IMG/VR virus record: IMGVR_UViG_3300025009_000268
Coordinates: 1-35,899 of that record
Strand: one strand, 5' to 3'
DNA from: a virus
DNA: 35,899 nucleotides
The position numbers and the translations under genes were made by a program. The notes beneath the pieces are model-generated. The model did not search any database. It saw nothing but the letters and a program-made list of their open reading frames with translations, and was not told the origin of the DNA. The stretch's first letter is position 1, and each line of letters starts with the position of its first letter. Below, in pieces: positions 25,051-35,771 of the stretch.

Positions 25051-25124
25051 TGTCATTGCGAGGACGCTCTTCCGACACTTGCGCCGTGCTGCGCTCTTTG
25101 CAGTGCAGGTGAGCAATCCCCAAC
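25051..25124 (-). repeat. Dispersed hairpin repeat, family A copy 5, with insertion
   Basis: TGTCATTGCGAGGACGCTCT at the left and GAGCAATCCCCAAC at the right (plus strand). The middle is about 30 bases longer than in other copies. It lies in the leader of the holin-like gene, between the terminator and the ribosome binding site. Confidence 0.7.
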
Positions 25125-26850: not shown

Positions 26851-27164
26851 TTAATCGGAAATCGCATGTTTTCGTACTCATCTATAATAATTTTGTCGTG
26901 GTGTAATCCGTTTATGTGATAAGCCGATTTTTCAACTATCGTTAGATCCTTCAGATACCACCACCCGACGTGCCCGGTGCCCCATTCCACCTGCCCCAGC
27001 CGGTTATCGCAATCCACCTGGAGGAGCTTGCCGTCGTGCAGCGCAGGTCGGTCAATACAATCCACCATGCAGCCCGGCCTGAAATCTTCCTTTGGCCGCA
27101 TGTCTTCCAGTTGCAAATGCTGCAAAATAAAAGAACCAGAAACAGAAAGGATGTGTTTTGCCAT
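26814..27164 (-). CDS. Unknown early protein
   Basis: This protein is about 116 residues. The ATG at 27164 has GGAGG 6 bases before it and overlaps the upstream stop (TGATG). It contains GCMVDCIDRPALHDGKLLQV, then WGTGHVGWWYLKDLTIVEK, a beta-rich pattern that resembles an SH3- or KOW-like barrel (residues 30-80), but I cannot name the family. The C-terminal ten residues come from a family A repeat. Confidence 0.55.
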   Translation of the reverse strand: MAKHILSVSGSFILQHLQLEDMRPKEDFRPGCMVDCIDRPALHDGKLLQVDCDNRLGQVEWGTGHVGWWYLKDLTIVEKSAYHINGLHHDKIIIDEYENMRFPINLEIASAESASQ

Positions 27165-27736
27165 CACTCGCCTCCGATGTTGATCAACCGCATACCCGTT
27201 TTACTTTTTTTATTCACCAGGAGCACTTCATCTTTTGGCATGTCTGGTTCTTCTACTATCGGGCAACCCAGAAAACTTAATTGCTCCGGTTGGTCTTTAT
27301 GGTCCTTACATTTTTCAAAACCGTGTTCCCGGAAGTAACCAACTGTCACACGTTCGATGATTAGTTCTTCGTCAACAGCCTCACGGAGAAATTCCTTTAC
27401 ACCGTCGGGATGAATACCGTCATCCACACACGCGCCACAGATGCATCCGCATTTTTCTCGTGTGATGTACGATGGAGTATTTTCTCTACCATCGACTGTT
27501 GGATGATCATGTCCAAGGCACCCTTTGCCAGAATAGTCAAAGTTGTCGCAGGTTCCCAACGGAATAACCTTGTGACCCTCAGATAATTCTTTCTGCAATT
27601 CAGCCCTGGCTTCTTTGCAGGTAAGGACTCTACCGTTATCGTCTTCAAAGACATTTTTCCAATCCCGCTGGAAGTCTTGCGAAGACATGCACAAAAGATG
27701 CTCTACATTCACTCTCATGTGAAAAGACCGGCTCAT
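27164..27736 (-). CDS. Unknown phage protein with Cys-rich segment
   Basis: This protein is about 190 residues. The ATG at 27736 is chosen since AAGGAG ends 6 bases before it, and the earlier ATG at 27742 touches the site. Sequence features are DWKNVFEDDNGRVLTCKEAR, GHKVIPLGTCDNFDYSGKGC, LGHDHP, and EKCGCICGACVDDG, with several Cys/His that could bind zinc. The segment around GHKVIPLGTCDNFDYSGKGC resembles one I have seen in phage hypothetical proteins. Its function is unknown. It is the first gene after the GGTACC cluster. Confidence 0.55.
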   Translation of the reverse strand: MSRSFHMRVNVEHLLCMSSQDFQRDWKNVFEDDNGRVLTCKEARAELQKELSEGHKVIPLGTCDNFDYSGKGCLGHDHPTVDGRENTPSYITREKCGCICGACVDDGIHPDGVKEFLREAVDEELIIERVTVGYFREHGFEKCKDHKDQPEQLSFLGCPIVEEPDMPKDEVLLVNKKSKTGMRLINIGGE

Positions 27737-27807
27737 ATTCATCTCCTTGTACTCAGTGTCGTTATCATTCGCTTACCTGCCCTTCCTGCCTTTCTGTAAT
27801 TCCATGT

Positions 27808-27892
27808 GGTACCCTCGCTTTTTATCTGAGTGGTACCACCGTTCGGTACCTGTCATTTCCGGTGGTACCGTCTGATAACCTCAAGCGGTACC
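27808..27892. repeat. Five GGTACC palindromes: candidate centromere or operator array
   Basis: GGTACC occurs at 27808, 27832, 27845, 27864 and 27887 (first bases), five copies in 85 bp. Most are extended as GTGGTACC or GGTACCAC. The array lies just downstream of the ParA and partner genes, in a 169-bp space with no gene. Elsewhere in the window I noticed only isolated copies (near 11540 and 17690). A cluster of palindromes next to a parA cassette is what a partition site looks like. It could also control the next operon. Confidence 0.6.
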
Positions 27893-27905
27893 CCATAAAA
27901 AGCAT

Positions 27906-28274
27906 TTAGTCTGTTTCCCACACCAGCTTGTACTCATATCGCGGGTTCCGGTCCAGCGGCACCTTGTATATGGATGGGTCCACGTCCCCGCGCTCGTAAG
28001 CCTGCAGGAACAGGTGCAGCGCGATCCCTGCCACCTGGCTTGCCGGGGTGCACAGCTCATCTGCAATCTTCTTGATCGCCTTGATCAATTCCGGATCCAG
28101 GTCATACACTGCCCGGCTGCCGTTCCTGGCTTCCTGTTTTGCCTGGCTTTTTTTTAGGTTTGCCCGCGCCTTTTTCGGCATCGCCCGCTCATTCCTGCGT
28201 TGATTTCCGCTGCCAAGTGCTGCCTGCACCGCCGGATCCAAATTCCCGTTCAAAAACCCGTTCGCATCTTTCAT
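27906..28274 (-). CDS. Putative ParA partner (centromere-binding, ribbon-helix-helix-like)
   Basis: This is a 122-residue protein. The ATG at 28274 has GGAGG 4 bases before it. An upstream ATG (MLRKSVLAMTG) only reads through a dispersed repeat. The first half is basic and probably flexible (NQRRNERAMPKKARANLKKS), as in the tails of small partition partners that stimulate ParA. The second half (SRAVYDLDPELIKAIKKIAD ... TPASQVAGIALHLFLQAYER) fits a strand-helix-helix of ribbon-helix-helix or antitoxin type. It directly follows parA and precedes the GGTACC cluster, its likely binding site. The role is inferred. Confidence 0.65.
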   Translation of the reverse strand: MKDANGFLNGNLDPAVQAALGSGNQRRNERAMPKKARANLKKSQAKQEARNGSRAVYDLDPELIKAIKKIADELCTPASQVAGIALHLFLQAYERGDVDPSIYKVPLDRNPRYEYKLVWETD

Positions 28275-28283
28275 CTTTCCTCC

Positions 28284-28321
28284 TGTCATTGCGAGGACGC
28301 TCTTCCGAAGCAATCCCCAAC
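28284..28321 (-). repeat. Dispersed hairpin repeat, family A copy 8
   Basis: TGTCATTGCGAGGACGCTCT ... GAAGCAATCCCCAAC on the plus strand, in the gap between parA and its partner gene. It shares the GGACGCTCTTCCG centre with copy 5. Confidence 0.8.
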
Positions 28322-28325
28322 AAAC

Positions 28326-29069
28326 TTAGATGATCTTTAAAAGCTTATCGAGACACTCCGCATACCCAACCAGCGCCCGCGGATGCCCTTCCAGCTCCCA
28401 CAGCGTCTTCCCAACCCGGTTAGCCACCCTGCAGTGCGTATCCTGCGCCACTGGAGGCCACACAAAGGATCCGTACGTCGCAGCCAGGTTCTCCAGCTGC
28501 GCCTGGGACTCATTCGTCACCTTGTCGTAAAACGTGGGGATGATCCCTGCCAGCTTGCACCTTGACCGCGTCGCCCGCTGCACCGAATCCAGCGATCGCA
28601 GCATCTCGATCACACCCTTGATCGCAAATTGATCCAGCTTCGTTGGGATGATCAGCAGATCCGCCGCCACCAGTGCCGCCGTGTGCAAAATATCCACGCT
28701 TGGCGGGCAATCCAGGATTACCAGGTCAAACTCATAACCCTGCAGCGCATTACTGATGATCATTTCCCTGAAATCCATGCCGCTGGCCGCCACCTTCAAC
28801 TGCGCCGTGGTCTTATTGGACCGGATCACGCTCAGCCGTTCTCTTCCGGTGGCAGTTACAGCCACTTTATCGGTGGATGCACCATTGATTAGCCAGGAAT
28901 ACAGCTCCGATCCATCATCCATACCCAGGGCATCCGCCACATTCCCCTGCGTATCCAGGTCCACCACCAGCACACTCATCCCGCGGATCGCCGCCCCATG
29001 TGCCAGGTTCACCGCCGTGGTGGTCTTCCCTACCCCGCCTTTTTGATTTGCAACTGTGATAACTGTCAT
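28326..29069 (-). CDS. parA: ParA-type partition ATPase
   Basis: This is a 247-residue protein with GGAGG before its ATG. The deviant Walker A (ANQKGGVGKTTTAVNLAHG, residues 7-25) has the signature lysine. DLDTQGN near 38 and ILDCPPSVDI near 115 give Walker A' and B. LTIIP-like LLIIPTKLDQFAIKG follows near 142. The short N-terminus with no DNA-binding domain puts it with the chromosomal-type or type Ib ParA. It would position low-copy DNA molecules along the nucleoid together with a centromere-binding partner. In a phage it points to a stage as a plasmid. The partner gene follows directly. Confidence 0.92.
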   Translation of the reverse strand: MTVITVANQKGGVGKTTTAVNLAHGAAIRGMSVLVVDLDTQGNVADALGMDDGSELYSWLINGASTDKVAVTATGRERLSVIRSNKTTAQLKVAASGMDFREMIISNALQGYEFDLVILDCPPSVDILHTAALVAADLLIIPTKLDQFAIKGVIEMLRSLDSVQRATRSRCKLAGIIPTFYDKVTNESQAQLENLAATYGSFVWPPVAQDTHCRVANRVGKTLWELEGHPRALVGYAECLDKLLKII

Positions 29070-29071
29070 AC

Positions 29072-29812
29072 TTATGCCTCCACCTTTTTGAACTCAATCA
29101 CCCACACCCACGGGTTTGATTCCCAAGGAAACCCGCGTTTGGCGTTGATGGAATCCCATAACCGTCCAAATATTTTTGGAAACTCATTTTCGAAGTACCC
29201 TGTTTTCCCCCATGTCTCACCCGGCCATTTGACGCCTTCCATGCCAATTTCAGAGAGAATAATTTCCTGCAATCTCTCCACCCTGACCTTGCCAATTTCC
29301 AGCGTGATCCGGCTTGCCCAACGAGGCATAAAGATTGACGGTGTCCAATGATTCATTCCGCCTTTTATAGTTTTTTCTGACATATATTTATGGTCAAATT
29401 GTTTAATTCCTCCAGCTCGATAAGTAACACTTACAACTTCTTTTGTGTAAGGCTCAATTCCCATCATGCAATCTATTTTGCACGTTTCGCGCACCCACAA
29501 CCTGTCACCAGGCACACCATAAGGACACTTCACTACAATTGGATTGATTTCTCGTTTTTCAGATTGTTCACCCAAAAACCAATGCCATAATCCGGGTTCT
29601 TTTTTGAATTGTTTTTTTGCAGGAGGATTGAGATAGTAATCGCTTACTTCTAATCCGCGATATCCGAGAAGTCCTAATGAGCATTGACCAATCAAACTCC
29701 CAGGATATTTATTTACATCATCAAGTCCCGTTATTCTCCTGGTCTGTGTTTTTCTGCCTTCCAGGATCGCCTTCACCATTTCACCGCTGAATAAGACCGG
29801 TCGCTCTTTCAT
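29072..29812 (-). CDS. Phage protein with ASCH/PUA-like N-terminal signature
   Basis: This is a 246-residue protein. The ATG at 29812 has AAGGA upstream and overlaps the previous stop (TGATG). Longer in-frame versions extend into another gene. The beginning MKERPVLFSGEMVKAILEGR followed by KTQTRRI is a signature common to many phage proteins with a PUA-like (ASCH) fold, thought to bind RNA or modified nucleotides. Later features are CPYGVPGDRLWVRETC and MPRWASRITLEI, also typical. The biochemical role is unknown. It is encoded between the putative origin and parA. Confidence 0.7.
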   Translation of the reverse strand: MKERPVLFSGEMVKAILEGRKTQTRRITGLDDVNKYPGSLIGQCSLGLLGYRGLEVSDYYLNPPAKKQFKKEPGLWHWFLGEQSEKREINPIVVKCPYGVPGDRLWVRETCKIDCMMGIEPYTKEVVSVTYRAGGIKQFDHKYMSEKTIKGGMNHWTPSIFMPRWASRITLEIGKVRVERLQEIILSEIGMEGVKWPGETWGKTGYFENEFPKIFGRLWDSINAKRGFPWESNPWVWVIEFKKVEA

Positions 29813-30042
29813 CAGATCTTCCTTCCCACAAATAAATGTCCCTTCAAGCAGCTGGGCACTCCAATGACCATGATCCCTTCCACCACCAACAGATCCAGAT
29901 CCTTCAGATCCTCCGGATTCGCGTTGATCACCGTCGCCGCGCATTTATATCGGAATTCATGCCGTCGTAAAGCGTCACCAGCATTCTCCGCCAGGCTCTT
30001 GCCCAGGTTCATCCTCCAGCACAAACCAACTTCACCGCGCAT
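29812..30042 (-). CDS. Small unknown early protein
   Basis: This is a 76-residue protein. The ATG at 30042 has AAGGAG 5 bases before it. A longer frame upstream lacks such a site and runs into the repeat region. It contains MNLGKSLAENAGDALRRHEF and ANPEDLKDLDLLVVEGIMVI. I recognise no family. It is the first gene after the repeat-rich non-coding stretch. Confidence 0.5.
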   Translation of the reverse strand: MRGEVGLCWRMNLGKSLAENAGDALRRHEFRYKCAATVINANPEDLKDLDLLVVEGIMVIGVPSCLKGHLFVGRKI

Positions 30043-30077
30043 ATTGCTCCTTATTTTTTTGAAATCAATGAATACCA

Positions 30078-30399
30078 ATGAACTTGCAATGAACTTGTAA
30101 AACCCTAAGTTCATTTAAAAAACGCATGTTCATTGGCTCCATAGCAAAAGCAGGGAATAATCCCCATGTCTGTTCATTGATGTTCATCAATTCATCACTT
30201 TTAAGCCTTTTTATTAATAAAAAGGCATGTTTTAACATCGATCCATAATTAATCAGATTATTAAATGAACTTATGAACTTAGAAGCCCCCCCAGCGGGTT
30301 TTGTAATTTGTTTTGTCGTATGCCTAAAAGCACATCTGCGACAAATACAAATGACAACAGTAGAATCCCAAAACAAGTTCATCAAGTTCATAAGTTCAT
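30078..30399. repeat. Candidate replication origin: 11 copies of GTTCAT/ATGAAC
   Basis: ATGAAC at 30078, 30089, 30265, 30273 and GTTCAT at 30109, 30128, 30172, 30182, 30377, 30386, 30394 (first bases). Eight are extended to ATGAACTT/AAGTTCAT. Less than one would be expected by chance in this length. The last three are spaced 9 and 8 bp, like iterons, and include the stop codon of the primase. The stretch is A/T-rich and has no credible gene from 30043 to 30395. An iteron-type origin next to the replication gene is the best explanation. Confidence 0.6.
30205..30226. other. Perfect 22-bp A/T-rich palindrome
   Basis: GCCTTTTTATT is followed by its exact complement AATAAAAAGGC. On RNA it could be a hairpin that ends the primase transcript, and on DNA an easily opened cruciform in the putative origin. 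A run of four A bases, but no T-run, follows the stem on the minus strand, so termination is only possible, not clear. Confidence 0.6.
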
Positions 30400-33344
30400 A
30401 GACCATCGTTTTTATCCACATCTGGAAGAGTAATTTGCGTCTCAACCGCCTTTGTAGGGGCGAGAGGCATCTCGCCCGGTTTGGATTTCTTGGCGTCTTT
30501 TTCCTGTGGCCCCAATTCCTCATGGACCACCCCGTACCGCCTGGAGATTGCCAGCATCCGTTTTTCATCCCAGATCACATAAAACCCTTTTGAAGACCTG
30601 TTCGTGATCTCAAATTGCAGCTTTTCTCGCAGCCTGTGACCCACCATCTGCGCGCTGATCGCATCCTTTTTCTTCTTTTTGAGCTTGCTGTCATCCTCCT
30701 CTTTATCGTCATCGTCCATATTCATTTCCTTCATGATCTGATTGGCGATGTTCTTGATATTTCCGATCTTGATCTGCTCCCGTCCATCCGGATTTCGCTC
30801 CACCATCACCAGGTGCAGATCCGGGTACTTGTAGATCTTCCACATCGCCTCGATGATCCTTGCCTCAACGCTCATCGCCTTATCCTGGATCAGGTAAAGG
30901 TGATACTCATTCATGAACTTGTTGATATCTTTCCGCAGCGCCTCATCGTTTTCCGCGATCATCAGGATGGCCACGGTCACCTGGTTGAGCCTCGCCGTGA
31001 TATTCAGATTGTAAAATTCCGGGTTGATATCCCGTTGCGGCTGCCAGTTTTCCAGCCTCCAGCGCAGGAGTAAATTCCGGATGGTCTGTGCTTCAACCTT
31101 CATTTGTTTGGTTCTTTCCAGGGGAATTCCGGCGTCCTTTAGCTCATAAGTCTCTCTCGGCTGCACCGGGAAGGTGATACAGCGGGATCCCACTGCCTTA
31201 TCGAAGAAATCTCCCTGCATTGCGACCAATTTCGGACAGAAAGTTTGGAACATGGTCTCCTGGAACTCTTCTTTTCCGTCCACGATCACCTTTTCCGTGC
31301 GGTAGATCGGGCCGTCTTCCATGGCTCCCTGGGTCAAAAACTTCACGATTTCCGCGCTGGCGCCGCTGTCTTTCAGGTCCATTTCATCCATCAGCACCGT
31401 GCCCTTGTACCGTTCCACCATTCTGAATAAGCTGGAAGTGGAGCTGGCGCCGCTGGAGCTCATTGTTCGATAGCACAGCATCCCGATGCGTTTCATCAGC
31501 TCGCTTTTACCGCTCCCCGGCTCACCGGTTGCCCGCAAATAAGGGATAGCCGCGAAACTGTCATACACCCAGGTCAGCAGCACGTAATAGGAAATGATTT
31601 TATAGAACAGGGGATTTGACAGGAGAAACACGTTCTTAATAAACTTCTCGATGATCACTGCCAGCTCGCGTGTTTCTTTTATCTCAACCAATTTTGACGC
31701 CAGCTGGATGCCGCCCTTTAAGATCGTTTCGGTTGGCGGCATGGCTGCGTATTTCTTGCCATTGATGGATACCTTGTACCCGCAATCGACTCGTTTGTTT
31801 GGTTCGCGCCAGGCCAATAAAGCCTTCCCATCATCCGGATCATAGATGTAATCCACCACCCAGCCATCGATATAACCGCCCATTGTGAAAATAAAATCTT
31901 CGCCGTCCTCGTCCTTTTTATCTTCATGCAGGAACGCCTTGATCATTCGTTTCAATTCACGCTGATCCAGACCCAAAAGTCTGCCTAAATTCCCTTGTTT
32001 TTGCGCCAGGCTCATCTCATCCATCTCGGTGATGATCTCAACCGCTTGTTTGATCGCCCGGTCTTTTTTGGATCCTTCCTCTTTGCCAGCCAGGAAAGCA
32101 AATTTTTCTACAAAAATTGTTGAGCAATTGTTGATCAGTACCCCTACCAGGTGTTTTACTTCCTCTTGGTTCATCCCCCGCTTGGCCGAGATCTTCAGGA
32201 TATCGTTTGCATCCTTGATCGATTCATCCGACTGCAGATCCTGTATGATCGCCTTGCCGATTTCCTGCCATTCCAAAATGTACGTCGATGGACCTAACAG
32301 CCTGGCGGTTTTCAGCGTATTGGCCGGTTTATGATCCGATGGTTCCGAGATGATGGAATCAAAACTTCCCGCCTTGTCTGAGTCCAGCCCAAGGTAGAAA
32401 GTAGCACATTTGTTCTCTTTGTTAGCGCCGATGAATTTTGCAACTCTTTCATCAGCCGCCACGCCGTTGAGCGCGATCGCCGGGATTTCCCACTGATCAA
32501 GCGTTATCGCGTCCGCCTGGCCTTCCACGATCACCACCAGCGGCGCCGATTTCGACCAATGACTGTTTGCATAGATCTGTCGTTCCCCCGCCAGTTCCTT
32601 GACCGGGTTGTAATGTTCCTTTTTGACCATGTCCCGCAGGGAAAAATACCCGCACCTGGCGCCGAAATAATGGGGATAAACCAGCCTACCCCAGCCCACA
32701 ACGCCCTTGATCTTCCCGTCTGTTATCCATTTCTGATCAACTTTGACGTCATAATCCCTGCCCCACTGCCCGATATCGGTCTTGCTCAGCCCGAGGATAG
32801 CAACAGCAGCAGGCGCGCGCGGATCAATTCCAGCCGCAACCAGGGCATTGTGCATCTCTTTTCGCAGGTTTTCACGCTCTTCATATTTACCGGTAAAACC
32901 CAGATGAACCCTGGAGATGGTCTCATCATTCCAGCCGCGGCCATGGGCGTAATCCAAAGCAGCAGCATCAGCCAGCAGCCATTTGTGGAACACATCACTC
33001 GCCGCAGAAAACACATCCTCGCGTTCCCTGGCTGCCACCCTGAAACTCGGATCCTGTTTGCTCCAATCCGGAGCTGCCAGGTTGCCTATCCTGCATAACT
33101 CTTCCAGCGCGCTCTTGAAATCCCAGCCTTTACGCTCCATCACCCAGCTGATCACATCGCCATGGGTACCCTTGCTGTACCACCAATAAGACTGGGTATC
33201 CACATCGATTTTGAGGCTGTCATGCTCGCTCGTCGATAATCTTCGGCCGCGTCCAGTGATGGAGAACTCACGCCCGATCACATCCTCGATCCTGACCGTG
33301 TGCTTTACTTGTTCAATAAGCTCGTCTATGCTGATATTCGCCAA
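30396..33344 (-). CDS. Primase-helicase (Toprim + AAA+-like ATPase)
   Basis: This protein is about 982 residues. I prefer the TTG at 33344, which has GGAGG 7 bases upstream. An ATG at 33362 is possible but has no such site. Residue numbers below count from that ATG. The N-terminal 80 residues have the frame of the DnaG zinc-binding domain (TVRIEDVIGREF ... YWWYSKGTHGDVISWVM), but the usual Cys ligands are absent. Toprim motifs follow: VVIVEGQADAITL near 275 and YLGLDSDKAG near 325. The ATPase has Walker A GEPGSGKS near 612-619 and Walker B VLMDEMDLKDS near 655. A charged linker and a C-terminal domain with GFYVIWDEKRMLAISRRYG come last. It would unwind DNA and lay primers at the fork. No phage DNA polymerase is present, so the host polymerase is likely used. 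Confidence 0.88.
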   Translation of the reverse strand: MANISIDELIEQVKHTVRIEDVIGREFSITGRGRRLSTSEHDSLKIDVDTQSYWWYSKGTHGDVISWVMERKGWDFKSALEELCRIGNLAAPDWSKQDPSFRVAAREREDVFSAASDVFHKWLLADAAALDYAHGRGWNDETISRVHLGFTGKYEERENLRKEMHNALVAAGIDPRAPAAVAILGLSKTDIGQWGRDYDVKVDQKWITDGKIKGVVGWGRLVYPHYFGARCGYFSLRDMVKKEHYNPVKELAGERQIYANSHWSKSAPLVVIVEGQADAITLDQWEIPAIALNGVAADERVAKFIGANKENKCATFYLGLDSDKAGSFDSIISEPSDHKPANTLKTARLLGPSTYILEWQEIGKAIIQDLQSDESIKDANDILKISAKRGMNQEEVKHLVGVLINNCSTIFVEKFAFLAGKEEGSKKDRAIKQAVEIITEMDEMSLAQKQGNLGRLLGLDQRELKRMIKAFLHEDKKDEDGEDFIFTMGGYIDGWVVDYIYDPDDGKALLAWREPNKRVDCGYKVSINGKKYAAMPPTETILKGGIQLASKLVEIKETRELAVIIEKFIKNVFLLSNPLFYKIISYYVLLTWVYDSFAAIPYLRATGEPGSGKSELMKRIGMLCYRTMSSSGASSTSSLFRMVERYKGTVLMDEMDLKDSGASAEIVKFLTQGAMEDGPIYRTEKVIVDGKEEFQETMFQTFCPKLVAMQGDFFDKAVGSRCITFPVQPRETYELKDAGIPLERTKQMKVEAQTIRNLLLRWRLENWQPQRDINPEFYNLNITARLNQVTVAILMIAENDEALRKDINKFMNEYHLYLIQDKAMSVEARIIEAMWKIYKYPDLHLVMVERNPDGREQIKIGNIKNIANQIMKEMNMDDDDKEEDDSKLKKKKKDAISAQMVGHRLREKLQFEITNRSSKGFYVIWDEKRMLAISRRYGVVHEELGPQEKDAKKSKPGEMPLAPTKAVETQITLPDVDKNDGL

Positions 33345-33362
33345 TGTTGATCCTCCAGCCAT

Positions 33363-34863: not shown

Positions 34864-35763
34864 TCATTCCGATGCCAATTTTGTGATTCGTTTCACCAGT
34901 TCAACAGCCGGGCAATCCTGGCACATCTTTACCGATGCCATATCAGACAGCTCACAGCTATTACAGGTCGCCTTAGCCGCCTCTTCGATCAGCGACCATG
35001 CCGGTGCAATGCCTTCCTTGCTCAAATTGATGAATATTCTGGATGCGTTTTCCGGTTTACCTGCCATTTCCAGTGCCGGGGAAGTCTTGGTTTGTGTAAG
35101 ATCCCGATCTGTCGATTCTCCATAATGGTTCAAGATCCTTGAGAGAGAGTGTCTGATGCCAAAAACGGTCATCTCTTTTTGCGCATACCGCATCGCCATC
35201 TTCACGCGGATCGCATCCGGAAGTTTGAATAATCCATAAATCACGTTGGGGTCGATTGGAAGTTTTCCTGCCGCGAGAAGCTCCTGAATTTCTTGTTCAA
35301 ATTCGAGGAGTTTTAGTCTTAGGTCGACATGCCCGATAGACCTTCCTACCATTCTGGCAATGTCTCGAATTAACCAACGATTAGCGCGTAATTTACCAAA
35401 AGCTCTTGCTTCTTCAACTGCATTCAGATCTGATCTCTGCAGATTGGCGATGATCGCATTCACCAGGTGTTTGCCGTCCTTTGTGTGCGGGGAATCCACA
35501 ACTGCCTTGATAGTTAGGATCTGCGCTAATTTTGTTGCCCTTAGTCTGCGCTCTCCATCCACCAGGAAGTAAACCGGACCTTTGTGACCTTCAATATTGG
35601 TATATGGCCCCTCAACCCTGATCGGTTGTAAAAGACTGTGCTTTACGATCGACTCCGATAATCCCCGTAACTCTTCCGGGTCAAAATAAGCTCTCGGCTG
35701 TTCGGGGTTTGGCAGGATCTGTTCTACGGGCAACAATTCAAAAGTCTCTTCGATTTGGGTCAT
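34864..35763 (-). CDS. ParB-like DNA-binding protein
   Basis: This is a 300-residue protein. The ATG at 35763 has AGGAG 5 bases upstream. An in-frame GTG at 35769 overlaps that site and is unlikely. Residues 10-100 have the ParB/Srx core: LPVEQILPNPEQPRAYFDPE, ESIVKHSLLQPIRV, and FLVDGERRLRATKLA. The helix-turn-helix region is WLIRDIARMVGRSIGHVDLR near 130-150. The C-terminus has CNSC and CQDC (about 267-285), which could hold zinc where ParB usually has its dimerisation domain. It may bind a partition site or regulate early genes. It is far (about 6 kb) from parA, so whether they work together is open. Confidence 0.82.
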   Translation of the reverse strand: MTQIEETFELLPVEQILPNPEQPRAYFDPEELRGLSESIVKHSLLQPIRVEGPYTNIEGHKGPVYFLVDGERRLRATKLAQILTIKAVVDSPHTKDGKHLVNAIIANLQRSDLNAVEEARAFGKLRANRWLIRDIARMVGRSIGHVDLRLKLLEFEQEIQELLAAGKLPIDPNVIYGLFKLPDAIRVKMAMRYAQKEMTVFGIRHSLSRILNHYGESTDRDLTQTKTSPALEMAGKPENASRIFINLSKEGIAPAWSLIEEAAKATCNSCELSDMASVKMCQDCPAVELVKRITKLASE

Positions 35764-35771
35764 ATCCACTC

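Follow-up and report, generated by a model that had tools for sequence, protein, structure and literature searches.

A spaced GGTACC array beside a parA cassette as a candidate partition site in a putative temperate Anaerolineae phage

Five copies of the palindrome GGTACC stand within 85 bp beside a parA gene in IMG/VR virus record IMGVR_UViG_3300025009_000268. What might such a cluster do in a phage genome? The record was analysed over its whole length of 35,899 bp (the window), which also holds a terminase, further phage-like genes and a large serine integrase. An earlier note on this DNA had taken the cluster for the partition site of a ribbon-helix-helix (RHH) partner of ParA. This candidate assignment gained support from the ParA domain, the RHH-like predicted fold of the partner, an array that tracks the partner among relatives, and a search by DNA pattern alone. 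The features of the locus are as follows.

27164-27742, minus strand: gene of unassigned product after the array
27782..28323, minus strand: segment of 542 bp exchanged between the window and the related locus L007, holding the partner gene and the array (plus the constant box) (blastn)
27788..27796, minus strand: CAGAAAGGC, the window copy of the constant box CAGGAnGGC (from enrichment after arrays)
27808..27892, no strand: candidate partition-site array of five GGTACC palindromes, with 79 bp between the outer sites (layout shared by relatives that have other words)
27808..27813, no strand: site 5, GGTACC
27832..27837, no strand: site 4, GGTACC, core of the full 10-bp palindrome GTGGTACCAC
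27845..27850, no strand: site 3, GGTACC, degenerate in L005 and L006 (GGCACC) and in L011 (GGTAAT)
27851..27863, minus strand: spacer between sites 2 and 3, containing GGAAA (alignment)
27864..27869, no strand: site 2, GGTACC
27887..27892, no strand: site 1, GGTACC, nearest parA
27906..28274, minus strand: RHH partner, putative centromere-binding protein, 122 aa (AlphaFold2 and Foldseek)
28101..28115, minus strand: codons of Arg54 (28113-28115), Val56 (28107-28109) and Asp58 (28101-28103), expected base-reading beta-strand positions (weak CopG profile alignment; the triple tracks the site type)
28326..29069, minus strand: parA, 247-aa Walker-type ATPase with the motif NQKGGVGKTT (Pfam AAA_31, 9.5e-41, and CbiA, 4.8e-20; PHROG 164, ParA-like partition protein, 4.8e-44)
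30396-33362, minus strand: primase

The array and the cassette

Every gene around the array lies on the minus strand, and the order is therefore parA, partner, array and next gene. This agreed with the earlier description of the cluster as following parA and a small basic protein, the latter with a predicted pI of 9.2 and an RHH-like fold.

The five copies were found where they had been reported, starting at 27808, 27832, 27845, 27864 and 27887, and the chance expectation of about 0.02 copies was reproduced by calculation (0.021 per 85 bp for uniform composition, 0.009 at the rate elsewhere in the window). Outside the array the window contained four more copies, each of them isolated. Among all 64 six-base palindromes, GGTACC formed the tightest group of five (79 bp), and the next one took 861 bp. 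Three GGTACC at such spacing were never seen in 100 dinucleotide shuffles. The statement that most copies are extended to GTGGTACC or GGTACCAC was true for three of the five (27808, 27832 and 27864). Among 27 sites from six distinct loci, selected as exact GGTACC copies, the flanks were weakly and symmetrically biased toward G at -5 and C at +5. In each of the six distinct GGTACC arrays aligned, the spacer between sites 2 and 3 carried GGAAAA or GGAAA.

ParA is a deviant Walker-A ATPase in which AAA_31 spans residues 1-169. No N-terminal HTH domain or family was found in it by Pfam. It is thus a ParA-type Walker ATPase without an N-terminal DNA-binding domain, as in type Ib systems.

The partner gave no confident domain in Pfam or PHROG, and only the comparison of folds provided one. 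A ribbon-helix-helix was predicted at residues 50-97, within an AlphaFold2 model of mean pLDDT 78.8 that had confident helices at 61-74 and 78-95; the beta-strand was not formed in the monomer model. Foldseek matched the model to CopG bound to DNA (1b01; probability 0.72, rmsd 1.4 over 37 columns). A second look gave a list made up mostly of RHH proteins (PutA, CopG, CdbA, omega and Arc), with Z of 3-4.7. Modest scores of this kind (Z < 5) are what one expects of a 45-residue domain modelled as a monomer. The assignment of the partner as RHH-like is thus supported by predicted fold, with modest scores, and the sequence-profile matches were weak. On this fold-based assignment, the small RHH protein beside parA also resembles type Ib. 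Type Ib partners have a flexible N-terminal region whose arginine finger stimulates ParA. In the window partner, residues 1-52 form a basic N-terminal region (pI 11.0), in which Arg37 was invariant in the partner alignment, and the C-terminal tail is conserved.

Arrays among the relatives

Searches with ParA found close relatives in IMG/VR, in Chloroflexota genomes and on a single closed plasmid (212 kb) of Leptolinea sp. HRD-7 (AP024711). On the plasmid, tblastn with the window ParA hit a single place, having a partner and a five-site array. The partner protein used alone as query found no relatives among viral contigs or annotated phages, and a nucleotide search of annotated phages returned only a 53-bp match within the ParA-coding stretch. 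A profile built from the partners found more cassettes, some of them in 46 of the 147 genomes of a family containing OKU9 ('uncultured Anaerolineaceae bacterium'). The relatives are phages, prophages and the closed plasmid of Anaerolineae (Chloroflexota), where the host statements rest on L168, L169, L178 and the plasmid.

At nearly all viral loci ParA was accompanied by an RHH-like partner and then by a short repeat array, and the RHH partner was present in 14 of 14 related loci. The DNA word varied by locus:

GGTACC: the window, L005, L006, L011, L012, L280, L416, L433
GGATACC/GGTATCC: L007, L008, L009, L013
GGGATATC: L010
GGTAGACC: L415 (same locus as L168)
GGCGACC: L248, L437, L419, L435, L017
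GGTGTCC/GGACACC: L421, L015, L423, L426
GGTTGC: L014, L027, L032, L430
GCTGGC: L025, L026, L029, L035, L427
ACGGTGGGG: L019, L020, L022
CCGCTTAC: L028, L037

GGATATC also occurred among the array words of relatives. Farther groups had mostly 11-13-bp tandem repeats, and the Leptolinea plasmid and its relatives had the array upstream of parA. Arrays were detected by simple repeat counting, some records being fragments; weak automated picks, as at several Anaerolineaceae-type genome loci (e.g. L440-L444 and L450-L452), were set aside uninterpreted.

Over many of these loci the word changes with the partner. The window and L007 provided the clearest case. Their DNA was 92.6% identical over parA to 2 bp past its stop, and 87% identical again from 27781 into the next genes, while the 542 bp between, with the partner and the array, did not align by blastn. 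ParA and the downstream gene product were each 95% identical and the partners about 50% (48% in the multiple alignment), and the word was GGTACC in the window against GGATACC in L007. With the flanks alike and both partner and array replaced, this indicated that the two had moved as one unit. L016, L019, L020 and L026 were also discordant, with ParA 62-67% alike, partners 25-34% alike and different arrays. Moreover, L007 and L008 (GGATACC) have a ParA nearer to that of the window than L011 and L012 (GGTACC) do, as expected if the site follows the partner and not ParA.

The window spacings are 24, 13, 19 and 23 bp by plus-strand starts, or 23, 19, 13 and 24 bp in the parA orientation. Calling them irregular, as was done earlier, is literally correct and misleading all the same, in that equal spacings recur in relatives. 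The distance from first to last site was 79-82 bp in GGTACC, GGATACC, GGATATC and GGCGACC arrays of the window clade and its plasmid cousins, and the six-site GGTAGACC array measured 104 bp (81 + 23). Inner spacings were about 23, 22, 13 and 23 bp, in this order or reversed, and some loci lacked single sites or had them in degenerate form. Words of odd length stood in both orientations within one array (L013 and L248). By these comparisons, the spacing is a conserved ruler in the clade of the window, whatever the word. A layout conserved while its letters change suggests a complex of defined geometry.

A constant box also accompanied the arrays. Within the 45 bp that follow the array, CAGGAnGGC occurred with 0-1 mismatch at 14 of 43 loci, where random stretches taken from these loci would have given 1.2; the enrichment is descriptive, because the box had been noticed in the counted loci beforehand. 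In most cases about 8-12 bp separated it from the last repeat, and it went with many different repeat words. Besides the window, L005, L006, L010, L011, L030, L417 and L420 had it after their arrays.

Searching DNA alone for spaced GGTACC, we found that every match with the exact layout of this family was a ParA and RHH cassette. Outside the family, many matches formed regular series with 12-bp spacing that are probably coding repeats, or were situated within replication-type genes, and clustering of GGTACC is therefore not diagnostic alone.

Two of the outside matches (L333:4799-4979 and L337:2856-3037) had eight GGTACC at 23-24 bp spacing with one 34-bp gap, adjoining a small protein whose start looks RHH-like (KRYTLRLTAELEEL). 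No ParA match was found in these stretches; perhaps they represent an independent use of spaced GGTACC. In L335, L323 and L321, GGTACC arrays of 11/22/33-bp spacing were situated inside genes resembling phage replication proteins. These are probably origins and not partition sites.

Strand residues and the DNA word

In RHH proteins, alternating positions of the strand (4, 6 and 8 in CopG) face the DNA. A weak profile alignment (E 0.43) placed residues 55-92 of the partner profile on CopG 4-41, and Arg54, Val56 and Asp58 on CopG 4, 6 and 8.

Each of the eight loci with Arg-Val-Asp at 54/56/58 had four to five clustered GGTACC, and every other locus had at most two such copies. The eight included L280 (with L310, the same virus), which had been found by DNA pattern alone, without protein information, and whose partner has Val56; L416 and L433, found by the protein profile, fitted as well. 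Once near-copies were removed, the eight loci came down to six distinct lineages. In a tree built without the strand, the Arg-Val-Asp partners formed one clade (support 98/96). Cause is therefore suggested and not proven, and the link between Val56 and GGTACC may have a single origin.

Over 48 non-redundant loci, identity of the strand triple was correlated with motif similarity after overall partner similarity had been removed (partial Mantel r 0.22, p 0.002; some weak motif picks were included as noise). The code is loose. Arg-Met-Asp was paired with GGTGTCC at some loci and with GGTTGC at others, and Arg-Thr-Asp was paired with GGCGACC and also with further words. A three-residue code as a strict rule was rejected, since each of these triples pairs with more than one word. 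In the close clade, most words kept the GG...CC flanks together with Arg54 and varied in the centre. From this we propose that Arg54 may read GG and residue 56 the core.

It seems to us somewhat probable that, in Anaerolineae phages and plasmids, a fixed frame (five sites over 79-82 bp, often with CAGGAnGGC) has been kept while the word was re-coded with the beta-ribbon residues, and that partner and site have been swapped as one module beside an unchanged ParA.

Partition and its alternatives

We consider it very likely that the array is the parS of a partition cassette, made up of ParA, RHH partner and DNA site, on a temperate Anaerolineae phage, and we propose that it acts as follows. One partner dimer would bind each two-fold symmetric GGTACC through an antiparallel beta-ribbon, in which Arg54 probably reads the outer GG and Val56 probably the central TA. 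On the fixed layout (about 23-22-13-23 bp), four to five such dimers would build one compact, probably wrapped complex, and the basic N-terminal tails of the partner would stimulate nucleoid-bound ParA-ATP. In the excised or replicating state of the phage, its replicated circular genomes might thereby be moved apart. The analysis shows the cassette, the prediction of an RHH-like fold, an array that tracks the partner and was exchanged jointly with it, and the conserved layout; we infer binding, one dimer per site, the residue roles, wrapping, ParA activation and the stage of the life cycle.

An Anaerolineaceae-type genome has the virus of L005, a sister phage, at 100% identity, with one short gap, within one of its contigs of 114 kb (G873:C46:26798-60626), and a serine integrase 48% identical to that of the window adjoins this prophage. 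Its flanks look chromosomal by ORF reading, L9-like ribosomal and RimO-like proteins being encoded to one side and an LDH-like protein to the other. L005, at least, thus integrates. It is also a counterpoint to partition, of which a chromosomally integrated phage has no obvious need. For SXT/R391 elements, partition of excised or replicating circles has been shown, with another type of system (PMC4489591).

An RHH protein could instead serve as a repressor or activator of the following gene (27164-27742) or of its own operon, with no role in partition. RHH proteins are often repressors, the array does separate the partner gene from the start codon that comes next, and the type Ib site often doubles as an operator (PMC5016525; PMC9499535). 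The first ORFs past the arrays, however, were unrelated among 13 loci, except for the window and L007. In L006 and L012 other ORFs intervened, the array being 291 or 782 bp away from the partner, and on a plasmid (L248) it was upstream of parA. A scan of 27100-29500 gave no sigma-70-like promoter match, which is a weak test. Autoregulation is usual in type Ib, and this negative result, with the lack of any array found near the start of parA, also counts against the partition reading. We regard a purely operator function as improbable. An even smaller chance is left for a replication origin, with the repeats as iterons for the neighbouring primase/helicase or another replication protein. A primase gene is indeed nearby, and GGTACC arrays do lie inside replication-type genes of other viral contigs (L321, L323 and L335), but primase similarity failed to predict the word: that of the window was 62% identical to those of both L006 (GGTACC) and L008 (GGATACC), and was farther from those of L005 and L011 (48-51%, GGTACC), some matches being partial. 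Another repeat cluster (ATGAAC/AAGTTC, 30007-30270) is also nearer to the primase.

The window does encode a ParB_N/HTH_ParB protein (34864-35769, minus strand), far from parA, and the array might be the parS of this canonical ParB, the RHH protein being irrelevant. Yet the array changes with the RHH partner, and relatives of the HTH ParB were matched in only three of 14 related records, one of them partial, against 14 of 14 loci for the RHH partner. No canonical HTH-ParB parS (TGTTTCACGTGAAACA) was found in the window with up to three mismatches. With no TGTTTCACGTGAAACA-type site and an RHH-like cassette partner, the locus differs from the HTH ParABS (type Ia/chromosomal) systems, and we give this reading almost no weight. 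Just as negligible is the probability that the palindromes work at the RNA level (as an attenuator or a terminator) or have clustered by chance. A scan did flag one terminator-like hairpin formed by two copies, but clustering was far beyond chance, the array was conserved with changed letters, odd-length words were in both orientations within one array (L013 and L248), and Rfam gave no match.

The ParA, RHH partner and partition site interpretation is thus strongly supported, as far as comparative sequence analysis goes, and we assign the locus as a type-Ib-like partition cassette with unusual site geometry. It shares with pSM19035 delta/omega and TP228 ParF/ParG a small ParA without N-terminal HTH, a small RHH partner with a basic N-terminal region, and short binding sites (here predicted) arrayed beside the operon. 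The pSM19035 sites are contiguous non-palindromic 7-bp repeats that overlap promoters, and their contiguity is needed for ParA activation (PMC9499535). Here, in contrast, separate palindromes stand 13-24 bp apart, in the window and in relatives, and downstream of the partner at most loci. The type Ib centromere is upstream of the par operon (PMC5016525), as is the array in L248; in the window it comes downstream, after the partner, and the start of parA has no GGTACC near it.

The units were said to be symmetric unlike most known sites. They are palindromes, as claimed, but are not unique in this, because archaeal SegB, an RHH protein, also binds palindromes (13-bp TCTAGASTCTAGA; PMC12284271). 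SegAB likewise combines a ParA-type ATPase with an RHH protein. Its sites are dispersed over the chromosome, two of them upstream of segAB, whereas the present phages and plasmids have a single compact array of 79-82 bp, with a word that changes between relatives. A SegB chain was not noticed among the sequence or fold matches of the partner, the second-look list being not exhaustive.

Joint diversification of an RHH partner (ParR) and its site (parC) is found in ParMRC of Clostridium perfringens, where both have split in parallel into families between which there is no cross-binding (PMC9426499). ParMRC differs in having an actin-like ParM instead of ParA, and direct repeats; its families differ in both repeat sequence and spacing, whereas here the spacing is kept and the word changed. 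SrpMRC of the SXT/R391 ICE resembles the present case in that partition genes are on a chromosome-integrating element (PMC4489591), although it is type II (ParM-like) and the element is conjugative. In the literature, of which our coverage is partial, we found no description of a conserved ruler with changing words or of a clean module exchange.

Partition specificities and incompatibility avoidance are usually inferred from distant families, whereas in the present case a single exchanged module distinguishes close relatives, and the new word coincides with a change at the expected base-reading residue. Evolution of RHH-DNA recognition, and the shares of geometry and sequence in a partition complex, are thus directly testable here. 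The cassette adds a putative partition system for Anaerolineae phages and a plasmid. If the reading of a fixed frame with a re-coded word is true, segregation identity tags could be switched by one recombination, and the locus would offer an approximate natural RHH recognition code.

Two other repeat elements were observed in the region. An interspersed repeat, CATTGCGAGG...GAAGCAATC, is present at 25054, 26815 and 28287, the last copy between parA and the partner gene; in L011 a similar element stands in opposite orientation between partner and array. The ATGAAC/AAGTTC cluster lies just past the end of the primase gene, and its repeats are possible replication iterons. Similar AAGTTC repeats were found upstream of parA in L025 and L026.
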